Below, piece by piece: positions 24,097 to 28,588 of a stretch of 31,449 bases of DNA. A program made the translations under genes and the position numbers. This stretch comes from a virus. The notes under the pieces were generated by a model, which saw only the letters and a program-made list of their open reading frames with translations, was not told the DNA's origin and ran no database searches. Where the stretch lies: the IMG/VR virus record IMGVR_UViG_3300038566_000237, positions 1 through 31,449 of that record, one strand, 5' to 3'. Numbering within the stretch: the stretch's first letter is position 1; each line of letters opens with the position of its first letter.

Positions 24097-24663
24097 TCAA
24101 TCAATAAGATCAGGTAATTCAGATGAAGGCATTTCTTTATCTCTACCCTTATATTCTTTCTTAATTTCAGCTATTTGCTGTTCAATAAAAGCATTATATT
24201 TTTTAGACATGCCAGAAGATTTTATAAATTCTCTCGTCCATTTATATTTGAAATCGAGTTCAGCATGATTACGTAAAACTTCTTCCTGGTCATCAATCAT
24301 TACTCTAAATCGGTCATAAAACTCTTCATACTGTACGATGATGTTTTTAAAGTACGGGTATTGAGCTTTCCAGAATAACTTTAACGCTTGAAGATTCGAC
24401 ATACCTGAGTAAAAACCGCATCCTGTAGATAACACGAAGTCAAAATGAGTGTAGTCAATACCTTCATCGTCTTCCTGATCCATAAGAATAGCTTTCTTCT
24501 CTATAGCCTTCTGATATCTAGCGACCTTAGACTTATCAAATGTCCCTACTAATTTTAAACCTTCTTCCTCGTCAAACTTACGATCGACTAATTTATCTCC
24601 GATCCCTAGCTTATCTTCAGGTTTTGTCATCTTACTCTTTTCACCAACTATAGGTATGCTCAT
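24097..24663 (-). CDS. Protein of unknown function at the end of the replication operon
   Basis: A protein of 188 residues. The N-terminal 60 are charged and probably disordered. The middle has YTHFDFVLSTGCGFYSGMSN followed by aromatic helices (ALKLFWKAQYPYFKNIIVQY, then EEFYDRFRVMID). The end is acidic. I do not recognise the family. The ribosome site AAGGAG lies inside the end of the previous gene, and the start overlaps that stop as ATGA, so it is made together with the putative metallopeptidase. This coupling suggests a shared function. Confidence 0.72.
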   Translation of the reverse strand: MSIPIVGEKSKMTKPEDKLGIGDKLVDRKFDEEEGLKLVGTFDKSKVARYQKAIEKKAILMDQEDDEGIDYTHFDFVLSTGCGFYSGMSNLQALKLFWKAQYPYFKNIIVQYEEFYDRFRVMIDDQEEVLRNHAELDFKYKWTREFIKSSGMSKKYNAFIEQQIAEIKKEYKGRDKEMPSSELPDLID

Positions 24664-25166
24664 ATTGTTCTCCTTAAAAAATTCTTAAATCGTTGCCATC
24701 TACTTAATATTTTAGGCGTGGGGTAGTAATACTCTGCTCTAATTTGAGCAAGCATCCCTATTTTATAAGGCGCTGTCTCTCCCTTACCATGACTTGTATT
24801 TCCTGCGTGTCCAAAACTAGCATCCTCTACATTGTGGTCCACTACATGGACTCCTTCGTGGACGATAGTATTGACAATACTGTTTATGGATCTTCTTAAT
24901 TTAGCTGTATTTATGAAGATGTATTCGGGTTGAGAAGGTTTGAAATAGGCATTGGCCCTACTAAAAGGTCTGTAATAAGTCTTAACAAAGATAAGACCTG
25001 GAGAGTACTTCAACTCCATAGATATTTTTGTAGGAGTAGTATTGTCTAAATCAAAGTCCCTTACACTAGCGATATCCGCATAAAACTCTTTCATTTCACA
25101 TATTAGATTGGCCCTATAAACTGCCGTTTTTAACTTCTTAATATTTCCTTTATAGTGAAATTTCAT
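24660..25166 (-). CDS. Putative zinc metallopeptidase-like protein (HEGVH)
   Basis: A protein of 168 residues with TIVHEGVHVVDH at about 100-111. H103, E104 and H107 form the HExxH motif of zincins. H111 or H120 (in SFGHAGNTSHGKGETAPYKI) could give the third zinc ligand. The N-terminal half is strand-rich (IFVKTYYRPFSRANAYF). No signal peptide is present, so it would act in the cytoplasm. It might cut a host or phage protein, but the substrate is unknown. Some SprT- and HExxH-type proteins process DNA-bound proteins, which would fit this operon, but that is speculation. ATGA overlaps join it to both the SNF2-like gene and the next gene. Confidence 0.72.
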   Translation of the reverse strand: MKFHYKGNIKKLKTAVYRANLICEMKEFYADIASVRDFDLDNTTPTKISMELKYSPGLIFVKTYYRPFSRANAYFKPSQPEYIFINTAKLRRSINSIVNTIVHEGVHVVDHNVEDASFGHAGNTSHGKGETAPYKIGMLAQIRAEYYYPTPKILSRWQRFKNFLRRTI

Positions 25167-26410
25167 AACGTCTCCCTCATAGTCTTAGCTTTCTGCCTTA
25201 AATTGTAAGTCATTTCTTTATCAATCTTATTAGACGACAAGTAATATGCTTTTACAATTTTCTCCTGTCCTATACGGTGAACTCTCTTCAATGCCTGTGC
25301 GTTTTGGTGAGCTTTGGCGGATAGATCATTAAATACGACTTGATGTCCTCTGGTAATGTTAAACCCTACGGCCATAGAGTCAATCGTACCTACAATAGCG
25401 TCCAGTCTCCCGTCCATATACAGCTTAACTATCTTATGCCGTTCATCCATATCAACGTCACCATTAATAACTTTAACTCGCCTCTTCTTCTTAGTTAATC
25501 CTTCGAATATGTTATCTACTGGGATCCGATGGTCGGAAAAAACCACAACAGGACCACCACTTCCAATAAGATCGTCAACAAAATCGACACAGTAAGTACT
25601 CTTAACGATGGCGGATTTCTTCTTAATCGTCGCCCAAACTCTTTCTCGTTCTGCATCCTTTAACTCCTCTAACAGCTCATCATCTAGCTTTTCTTGAGTG
25701 ATAGTTATAGTCTGCTCTATAATTTCCCCTAAATCCAATACATCTTCACATCTTCTACGTAGGTATTTGTCCTTAAGTAGTCTCTTCAACCCTTGTACGT
25801 TTTTAGTACCGTAATACTCTGGGATTTTACGTCCTCTAATCTTCTTGTATTTTACGTTACAAAACTTCTGGCAGAAGTCCCAATAAGATACGTTATCGAT
25901 ACCCAATCCGTTATTACGGAAGGGATTGTAGGACATGAGCATGATGAGAGAATACCAGTCTGGTACTTTACCAGTAATTGCTGTACCAGATAGGCCAATC
26001 ACTCGTGCTGGCCTATGGTCATAAACGTATTGATGGGTAGCTTTAGTTCTAGCAGCATCTTTATTCTTAATGTAATGGATTTCATCCAATATCAAACAGT
26101 CTGCCCACTTAAACAACTCCTCGCTATCCTTCGCCTTAGTATAGGAAATGATCTTATATTCAAACTGATTAGGATTAACGAGGAATTTATTGAACTCGTC
26201 TTCCCAATTTAGCTTTAAGAAAGCAGGACAAGCAACGAGTACCCTCTCTCTCTTTGTCATCGCCGCTATACCTATTGCCTGAAAAGTCTTGCCAAGACCC
26301 ATTGCGTCACCGAGGACACAGTAGTTATGGGCTATTCCGAATTGAATCCCTTCCTTTTGATATGGGAAGGGATCGTATTTTAAATATTTGCTATAAATTG
26401 TCTTCTTCAC
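25163..26410 (-). CDS. Small SNF2-family helicase-like ATPase
   Basis: A superfamily 2 DNA translocase of 415 residues, with both RecA-like domains and almost nothing else. Motif I is GDAMGLGKT (34-42), motif II is DEIH (109-112), motif III is LSGTAI (140-145). The second domain has VVVFSDHR (about 298-305), GTIDSMAVGFNITRGHQVVF (motif V) and QALKRVHRIGQ (motif VI, ending at 382). The HRIGQ ending is typical of SNF2, closest in style to SMARCAL1-like annealing helicases. It starts at GTG 26410, directly after an in-frame TAA, so no earlier start exists. It overlaps the upstream gene by 20 bases. In phages such enzymes probably remodel forks, strip proteins from DNA or aid annealing. Confidence 0.92.
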   Translation of the reverse strand: MKKTIYSKYLKYDPFPYQKEGIQFGIAHNYCVLGDAMGLGKTFQAIGIAAMTKRERVLVACPAFLKLNWEDEFNKFLVNPNQFEYKIISYTKAKDSEELFKWADCLILDEIHYIKNKDAARTKATHQYVYDHRPARVIGLSGTAITGKVPDWYSLIMLMSYNPFRNNGLGIDNVSYWDFCQKFCNVKYKKIRGRKIPEYYGTKNVQGLKRLLKDKYLRRRCEDVLDLGEIIEQTITITQEKLDDELLEELKDAERERVWATIKKKSAIVKSTYCVDFVDDLIGSGGPVVVFSDHRIPVDNIFEGLTKKKRRVKVINGDVDMDERHKIVKLYMDGRLDAIVGTIDSMAVGFNITRGHQVVFNDLSAKAHQNAQALKRVHRIGQEKIVKAYYLSSNKIDKEMTYNLRQKAKTMRETL

Positions 26411-28105: not shown

Positions 28106-28129
28106 AAATACTCCGTGCTGTTCTAAAGA

Positions 28130-28588
28130 TTAAAGATTTACGAAAGAGTCAAGGTCATCAGAAGGTTCCCCACCCTCATCTCCACCATTCTCGGCTACAA
28201 GTACTTCTACTTGGTGGAATATCGAACCTGCGTATTGGTGATCTTCAGGTAAAACATCAGTCCCCATATAGACAACTTTAATCATTTCACCTTCATTAAC
28301 CATCCCCATTTTATACGCTAAAGATCCTGCATTATTTAGAGATAAAGTTTCACCAACTTTAACTTCTCTATCGAATACCTTCTTACCTTTATTCTTACCT
28401 CTTGTAGGTATATAGTGGTGATCTGGGTCGAACTCGATATTGGTTTCGCTAATATCAACGTGGAAGTTTTCCTTCCCAAAATTGTCTGTACTAGTACCAG
28501 TGAATTTTCCTTGAATGTAGTCCCCATCCTGCCATAATTGCCAATTTCTGTACGCTTTTGCTCCACCTAATGTTCTAAATGTTGTCAT
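28130..28588 (-). CDS. Probable single-stranded DNA-binding protein
   Basis: A protein of 152 residues with beta-strand-rich sequence (QLWQDGDYIQGKFTGTSTDN, then NFHVDISETNIEFD) and an acidic C-terminal tail after about residue 130 (GGDEGGEPSDDLDSFVNL). The acidic tail with a Phe near the end is the usual partner-binding end of phage and bacterial SSBs. It sits between the DNA polymerase and the exonuclease, the expected place. The ribosome site is strong (AAAGGAG). I see no sequence signature that proves the OB fold, so the call rests on layout and tail. Confidence 0.65.
   Translation of the reverse strand: MTTFRTLGGAKAYRNWQLWQDGDYIQGKFTGTSTDNFGKENFHVDISETNIEFDPDHHYIPTRGKNKGKKVFDREVKVGETLSLNNAGSLAYKMGMVNEGEMIKVVYMGTDVLPEDHQYAGSIFHQVEVLVAENGGDEGGEPSDDLDSFVNL

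Follow-up and report, generated by a model that had tools for sequence, protein, structure and literature searches.

Covarying C-terminal tails and a candidate adaptor protein in a PolA-centred replication module of an uncultured phage

The virus record IMGVR_UViG_3300038566_000237 (31,449 nt, in the following the window) is a fragment of the genome of an uncultured phage. Downstream of a family-A DNA polymerase (PolA) it carries six open reading frames (ORFs), initially annotated as a possible uncharacterised recombination module consisting of a single-stranded DNA-binding protein (SSB), a RecE-like nuclease, a linker protein (here termed Link), an SNF2 ATPase, a protein with the motif HEGVH and a terminal protein. 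The ORF check confirmed all six on the minus strand at the expected positions, and all window coordinates given below refer to this strand. The locus raises the question which kind of module these genes form and what brings their products together.

According to our analysis the stretch belongs to a phage module for replication and recombination that is centred on PolA, of which it forms the distal part, and the module represents a variant of a gene set known in outline. As far as the literature searched shows, new are Link and short C-terminal tails that covary between unrelated proteins of the module, neither of which was found described in the open-licence papers covered. We lean, with modest confidence, towards a replication module in which a common docking peptide tethers the components to one another, with Link as the most likely common receptor.

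Relatives were collected by IMG/VR scans using PolA, SNF2, nuclease and terminal-protein queries and by one scan of bacterial genomes, resulting in about 55 non-redundant relatives (W denotes the window phage, L-numbers denote related phage contigs or loci). A blastn search of the window against cultured phages gave no match. The gene order SF3-PolA-SSB-nuclease-(Link)-SNF2, where SF3 stands for a superfamily 3 helicase, is kept in about 30 related independent contigs. As the same order recurs in so many independent contigs its recurrence exceeds chance, and the assumption of a conserved gene module is supported.

Shared C-terminal tails and the Link protein

The unrelated proteins PolA, SF3 helicase, SSB and nuclease of a single Link-encoding (Link+) phage end in a near-identical short acidic peptide with a hydrophobic end. 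In W the tails read EYLDLL in PolA, GVDLL in the nuclease and SFVNL in the SSB. The ends are EIL, QDLL, EDL and DFL in L042, LEDL, LDDL, NDDL and MEDL in L043, MQF, LEF, FEF and MEF in L008, and DEI, TDI, DDI and LDI in L035. A coordinated switch was detected in L058, in which PolA, nuclease and SSB all end in F, whereas all three end in L in its sister L057. Furthermore, PolA ends in SLLDEV and the nuclease in NLLDEI in L116.

Near-duplicate contigs were left out of the tail statistics. Among 32 Link+ phages the last residue of PolA agrees with that of the nuclease at a rate of 0.78 (0.44 when shuffled), with that of the SSB at 0.84 (0.51) and with that of the SF3 helicase at 0.88 (0.54; 0/5000 in each case), while the agreement between PolA and SNF2 shows no excess (0.29 versus 0.28). 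The PolA-nuclease and PolA-SSB agreement persists after thinning to less than 50% PolA identity, the test having no power below 45%. Acidic ends with a hydrophobic residue occur in 25-50% of the core families compared with 6% of the other ORFs, and in 0/30 SNF2 proteins of the first set.

A similar pattern was observed outside the immediate relatives. Across a set of 80 non-redundant DUF2800 modules, nuclease and DUF2815 SSB end in the same residue at a rate of 0.287 versus 0.087 (0/5000). In the cultured Salmonella Chi-like phage ER3 the primase ends in DEDEV, the Link-like protein in EEDDV, the DUF2800 protein in DDDEV and the DUF2815 protein in WEDEV, and the cultured Pseudomonas phage SS2019XI has the ends EDDDL, EGEDL, GEDDL and GDDDL.

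The tail of PolA accompanies Link. In Link+ phages PolA continues for 7-14 residues past the conserved F.KY[FM] end and its last residue is hydrophobic; in the window this extension (EPSNSLDQEYLDLL, 28624..28665) follows the conserved YKKYM end. Among the phages on the PolA tree such a tail is found in 30/30 Link+ phages versus 1/16 phages without Link (Link-). L072, L100 and L113 were noticed as tailed first and Link was found afterwards in all three, in L113 as a fusion with the nuclease. Nucleases of the RecE type and of the PDDEXK_1 type are both tailed when Link is present and DUF2800 nucleases beside Link mostly so, whereas the nucleases of Link- phages mostly lack a tail.

Link itself (26391..27053, ending in SEEDNL) has no family match at accepted cut-offs and was predicted to consist of an N-domain with three strands and one helix (modelled with moderate confidence), a disordered middle part rich in K, E, A and P and a confidently modelled helical C-domain (residues 146-213). 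Its homology was checked with separate profiles of the N- and C-domains in order to exclude the low-complexity middle. A C-domain profile from which W and L002 had been left out recovers W with an E-value of 4.6e-23. Such profile matches are solid for W, L002 and the NucB phages and show that the C-domain family is genuine. The N-domain profile joins the NucE-type and DUF2800-type Links (1e-14 to 0.01), while the N-domains of W, L002 and L038 were not detected by it. Canonical DUF2800 modules encode a small protein immediately upstream of DUF2800, the C-terminal domain of which is Link-like and matches 4/6 DUF2800-type Links (E-values of 6e-9 to 4e-4). Two Link proteins used as tblastn queries found no match among cultured phages. 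Contrary to its designation as linker protein, Link is more than a spacer given its conserved C-domain, the nuclease fusion in L113 and its co-occurrence with the tails. The Link sequence of the L002 phage was also encountered in L050, which carries the module of that phage with equal gene lengths. This contig had been assigned to a Bacteroidia metagenome-assembled genome (MAG) and is probably a phage contig binned with its host.

The window is particularly telling in this respect. Its tailed PolA is sister (100/100) to the untailed PolA of the Link- phage L004, which is 60% identical, ends in SKYMEGE and has no counterpart of the extension. The window nuclease (60%), SNF2 ATPase (46%) and terminal protein (51-52%) in contrast resemble those of the Link+ phage L002. 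Judged from these relationships, the window is a recombinant whose PolA tail fits its Link/nuclease block. Link is possibly the common receptor of the tails, and it is the leading candidate as it is the component gained together with the tail, while PolA is itself tailed. The SNF2 ATPase was also considered as receptor and was set aside since it is present in the tailed W as well as in the untailed L004 and thus does not track the tail.

Genes of the module and related systems

The plus strand of the window encodes podovirus-like structural proteins, including terminase, portal (phrog_332), capsid (phrog_3437) and tail or virion proteins (phrog_376, phrog_684). On the minus strand, the overlaps of ATGA or longer that had been attributed to the whole gene series were found at four junctions (nuclease/Link 4 b, Link/SNF2 20 b, SNF2/HEGVH 4 b, HEGVH/terminal 4 b), whereas PolA/SSB and SSB/nuclease are separated by gaps of 32 b and 24 b, respectively. 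The modules of L002 and L008 additionally contain several HNH homing-endonuclease-like ORFs between the core genes.

Two genes upstream of polA were missing from the initial annotation. The first is the C-terminal part of an SF3-type (DUF5906-like) replicative helicase (30814..31449; phrog_24712, E 4.5e-7) that is cut by the record end and ends in LPNDNV. The fragment is homologous to SF3 ORFs of about 510 amino acids in L002, L004 and L005, and the L002 ORF matches PF19263 (DUF5906) with an E-value of 6.5e-13. The second is a Zn-ribbon-like ORF of 64 amino acids with a CxxC...CxxC pattern (30659..30853) and no family match; a similar ORF of 59 amino acids precedes polA in L004. PolA (28621..30681) was identified by PF00476 (E 1.3e-16), phrog_17 (E 1.6e-38), its motif and the tree, and belongs to the Leu762 type (RDLFKATYLGISY). 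The leucine at the position of E. coli 762 and the neighbouring PDDEXK nuclease and SNF2 genes are all present in the window.

The best cultured relative of the PolA family by tblastn is a phage of Silvanigrella aquatica (Bdellovibrionota; L053/L052, CP017838.1), which encodes an SSB and a RecE-type nuclease and has neither Link nor a PolA tail. The hosts of the phage group may be Bdellovibrionota-like.

The SSB (28130..28588) was modelled by AlphaFold2 as an oligonucleotide/oligosaccharide-binding (OB) fold (βββ-α-ββ; mean predicted local distance difference test score of 88) with a disordered acidic tail ending in DLDSFVNL. It is conserved in about 30 relatives and has no family match at accepted cut-offs and no sequence match in the PDB. 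Fold comparison of the model gave no clear match to Gp2.5, the generic OB matches to bacterial SSBs, PriB and PRD1 P12 (Z of about 5) were all weak, and the sequence did not match PF10991/phrog_112.

The nuclease (27050..28105, tail SGVDLL) is a PD-(D/E)XK exonuclease of the RecE/ExoVIII family (PF12684/DUF3799, E 6.9e-18; phrog_412 'exonuclease VIII', E 6.6e-35). Its family profile matches the E. coli RecE structure 3h4r (E 5.5e-15) with aligned His, Asp and DxK motifs, so that the RecE-like assignment was borne out, and the putative catalytic residues are H65, D190, D201 and K203. Among the relatives the nuclease slot holds three types, namely the RecE type (window, L002, L019 and others), a second PDDEXK_1 type (L004, L005 and others) and DUF2800 accompanied by a DUF2815 SSB (L008, L030, L035, L071, L076, L100). 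The window nuclease matches DUF3799 and not DUF2800, which is confined to sister loci such as L008, L030 and L035.

In agreement with the initial annotation, models of four annealase families (RecT/Red-beta, PF03837; ERF; Rad52; Sak4, AAA_24) had no match in the window or in any of 32 phage records related to it. The sole RecT match of the annealase search was located on another contig of a Dependentiae MAG. A RecT gene was seen directly upstream of the DUF2800-DUF2815 module of Vibrio phage 142E35-1 (L185), which lacks shared acidic tails. A missing RecT is common for modules of this kind. In the sister modules the DUF2815 SSBs fall into PF10991/phrog_112, a family whose annotation reads 'Gp2.5-like ssDNA binding and annealing protein' and which is treated as such in the literature (PMC8093625, PMC5686142), and the duf2800-gp2.5-polA arrangement has been published. 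The SSB seems a more natural annealing candidate than the SNF2 ATPase.

The HEGVH protein (24660..25166) is a putative metalloprotease and an optional neighbour of the module. It has no family match at accepted cut-offs, and an alignment with L002, L004 and L005 revealed invariant H103, E104, H107 and H120. Its relatives (L004:13454-14050; L005:11998-12531) are metzincin-like with the pattern HExxHxxGxxH (HEYGHKLGFGH in L004), and the one in L005 has a lipoprotein-like N-terminus. A role in clearing DNA-bound protein, as initially suggested, is not supported in view of the metzincin-like pattern and the lipoprotein-like start, and the gene is missing from most relatives. The terminal protein (24097..24663) is likewise optional, ends in ELPDLID and has no family match and few relatives, including the L002 protein mentioned above.

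The module is not uncharacterised as had been supposed. Neighbourhoods of PolA (Leu762) with nuclease and SNF2 (PMC6302109, PMC9069017) and duf2800-gp2.5-polA (PMC8093625) have already been published. The duf2800-gp2.5-polA(-VRR-NUC-SNF2-VapE) module (PMC8093625; Enc34, PMC5686142) shares PolA, a PDDEXK nuclease, an OB-fold SSB, SNF2 and an SF3-type helicase with the window, also mostly lacks RecT, has a Link-like small protein directly upstream of DUF2800 and bears shared acidic tails in Chi-like phages. The window differs from it by a RecE/DUF3799-type nuclease, an SSB without DUF2815 match and a tailed PolA, and no VRR-NUC was seen. The virioplankton group with Leu762 PolA, a RecB-like nuclease and SNF2 (Nasko 2018, PMC6302109; PMC9069017) has the same Leu762 PolA/PDDEXK/SNF2 neighbourhood; the accessible sections of these papers describe neither an adaptor nor shared C-terminal tails, and those of PMC9069017 call the function of phage SNF2 unknown.

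The T7 replisome (gp5, gp4, gp2.5, gp6) likewise combines a PolA-type polymerase, an SSB and an exonuclease without RecT, and the acidic C-terminal tails of its helicase and SSB are used for docking (PMC12593628, PMC8472574). Strand-displacement synthesis depends on the C-terminal Phe of the T7 SSB (Ghosh 2009, a title cited in PMC3997047). In T7 the polymerase receives the tails, whereas in the window polymerase and nuclease also bear them; the window moreover has an SF3 instead of an SF4 helicase and possesses SNF2 and Link in addition. The RecE/RecT system of the Rac prophage resembles the window in its RecE-family nuclease (3h4r) and differs in that the window nuclease is followed by Link and SNF2 and RecT is missing.

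Proposed shared docking and alternative explanations

Several observations weigh against the proposed module with Link as docking hub. Most of the 30/30 Link+ phages form one clade of the PolA tree (support 96/94) and only 2-3 independent changes of Link and tail can be counted, so that the pattern is strong whereas the phylogenetic test is weak. The tail that Link itself bears in W, L042 and L043 is as compatible with its being a member as with a receptor, and canonical modules have an untailed PolA although a Link-like protein is present. L032, the sole exception to the Link/tail association, has a long divergent tailed PolA end and no detected Link. The tails of the window SF3 helicase (NDNV) and SSB (FVNL) match less well than those of PolA and the nuclease. 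A comparison of the Link fold, with its low-confidence N-domain model, against the PDB and BFVD gave no relevant match, annealase folds included, and the absence of RecT was determined in a window that is a fragment.

A T7-like organisation without special hub, in which the SSB anneals as Gp2.5 does and basic patches of PolA take up the acidic SSB and helicase tails, is unlikely and still to be taken seriously. It is consistent with the phrog_112 membership of the sister-module SSBs (PMC8093625, PMC5686142), with the binding of T7 gp4 tails to gp5 (PMC12593628, PMC8472574), with the untailed PolA of Link- and canonical phages and with the presence of the required tails on SSB and helicase, the latter being weaker in the window. 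However, PolA and nuclease are themselves tailed in Link+ phages including W, which makes PolA not the obvious sole receptor, and the window SSB is not detectably Gp2.5.

The tails may also dock on a host protein, such as the sliding clamp or a protein with a pocket for the SSB C-terminus, and thereby recruit the phage replication proteins to host factors. They resemble the acidic-hydrophobic C-terminal tips of SSBs, some end in LxL/LxF-like pairs, and the host clamp and SSB are established hubs that bind or present peptides (PMC11139829, PMC10164576). This seems quite improbable nevertheless, as in our reading of the tails the Gln of the clamp motif is mostly missing and as the gain of the tail together with the phage Link block (W versus L004) points to a phage-encoded partner.

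The tails might furthermore represent generic acidic autoinhibitory ends of DNA-binding proteins that are alike due to composition and shared ancestry. Acidic SSB tails are common (PMC5686142), phylogeny inflates the shuffle tests, and the independent Link changes are few. We regard this explanation as decidedly unlikely, however, since the exact end residues covary across non-homologous proteins (EF in L008, DI in L035, DLF in L058, LLDE[VI] in L116) and the covariation survives thinning while SNF2 shows none.

The SNF2-family ATPase (25163..26410; PF00176, E 5.4e-17; PF00271; phrog_62, E 2.8e-73) is a bare core of about 415 amino acids without accessory domain or tail. In L027 (L027:13980-16271) the SNF2 gene (763 amino acids) carries an intein-like insert that interrupts it immediately behind the Walker A GLGK. 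That the window ATPase replaces RecT as a SMARCAL1-like, ATP-driven annealing helicase while the HEGVH protein removes bound protein is highly improbable: no known annealase was found in 33 records, the gene lies near a RecE-like nuclease and the SNF2 proteins SMARCAL1 and ZRANB3 anneal strands (PMC9371921), but the core shows no match to the HARP domain at E<=1 and has no other annealing domain, its nearest solved relatives are the generic remodelers CHD1L, archaeal Rad54-like, SWR1 and INO80, the same SNF2 also accompanies modules with an SSB of the Gp2.5-like family, and HEGVH is mostly absent from relatives. Annealing would more likely involve SSB-bound strands or host factors than SNF2.

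Returning to the replication module with a shared docking peptide, we infer the biochemical steps and the identity of the receptor from the observed gene identities, their conservation, the tail covariation and the co-occurrence of Link and tails. The SF3 helicase and the Leu762 PolA would copy the genome while single strands would be covered by the OB-fold SSB. End resection would fall to the RecE-family nuclease, and annealing would be accomplished by SSB-covered strands or a host factor and not by RecT. The SNF2 translocase may remodel forks or clear bound protein. PolA, nuclease, SSB, SF3 helicase and sometimes Link would dock via their matched acidic tail on one receptor. Only tentatively can this be extended to a phage-specific C-terminal peptide code, in which a common tail on polymerase, helicase, SSB and nuclease would be read by a Link hub and the acquisition of the tail would recruit unrelated enzymes, as in the case of the recombinant PolA of the window.

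If confirmed, the tail docking known from T7, in which helicase and SSB dock onto the polymerase, would be extended to a multi-protein docking system. The principle is already known for two proteins; tails on polymerase and nuclease and a receptor other than the polymerase would be new. Phage modules of SNF2, PolA and nuclease are widespread, and a covarying C-terminal tag provides a testable rule for the membership of proteins in one machine and allows candidate hubs to be recognised among small unnamed proteins such as Link. Confirmation would furthermore provide a handle on the modular swapping of replication genes between phages.

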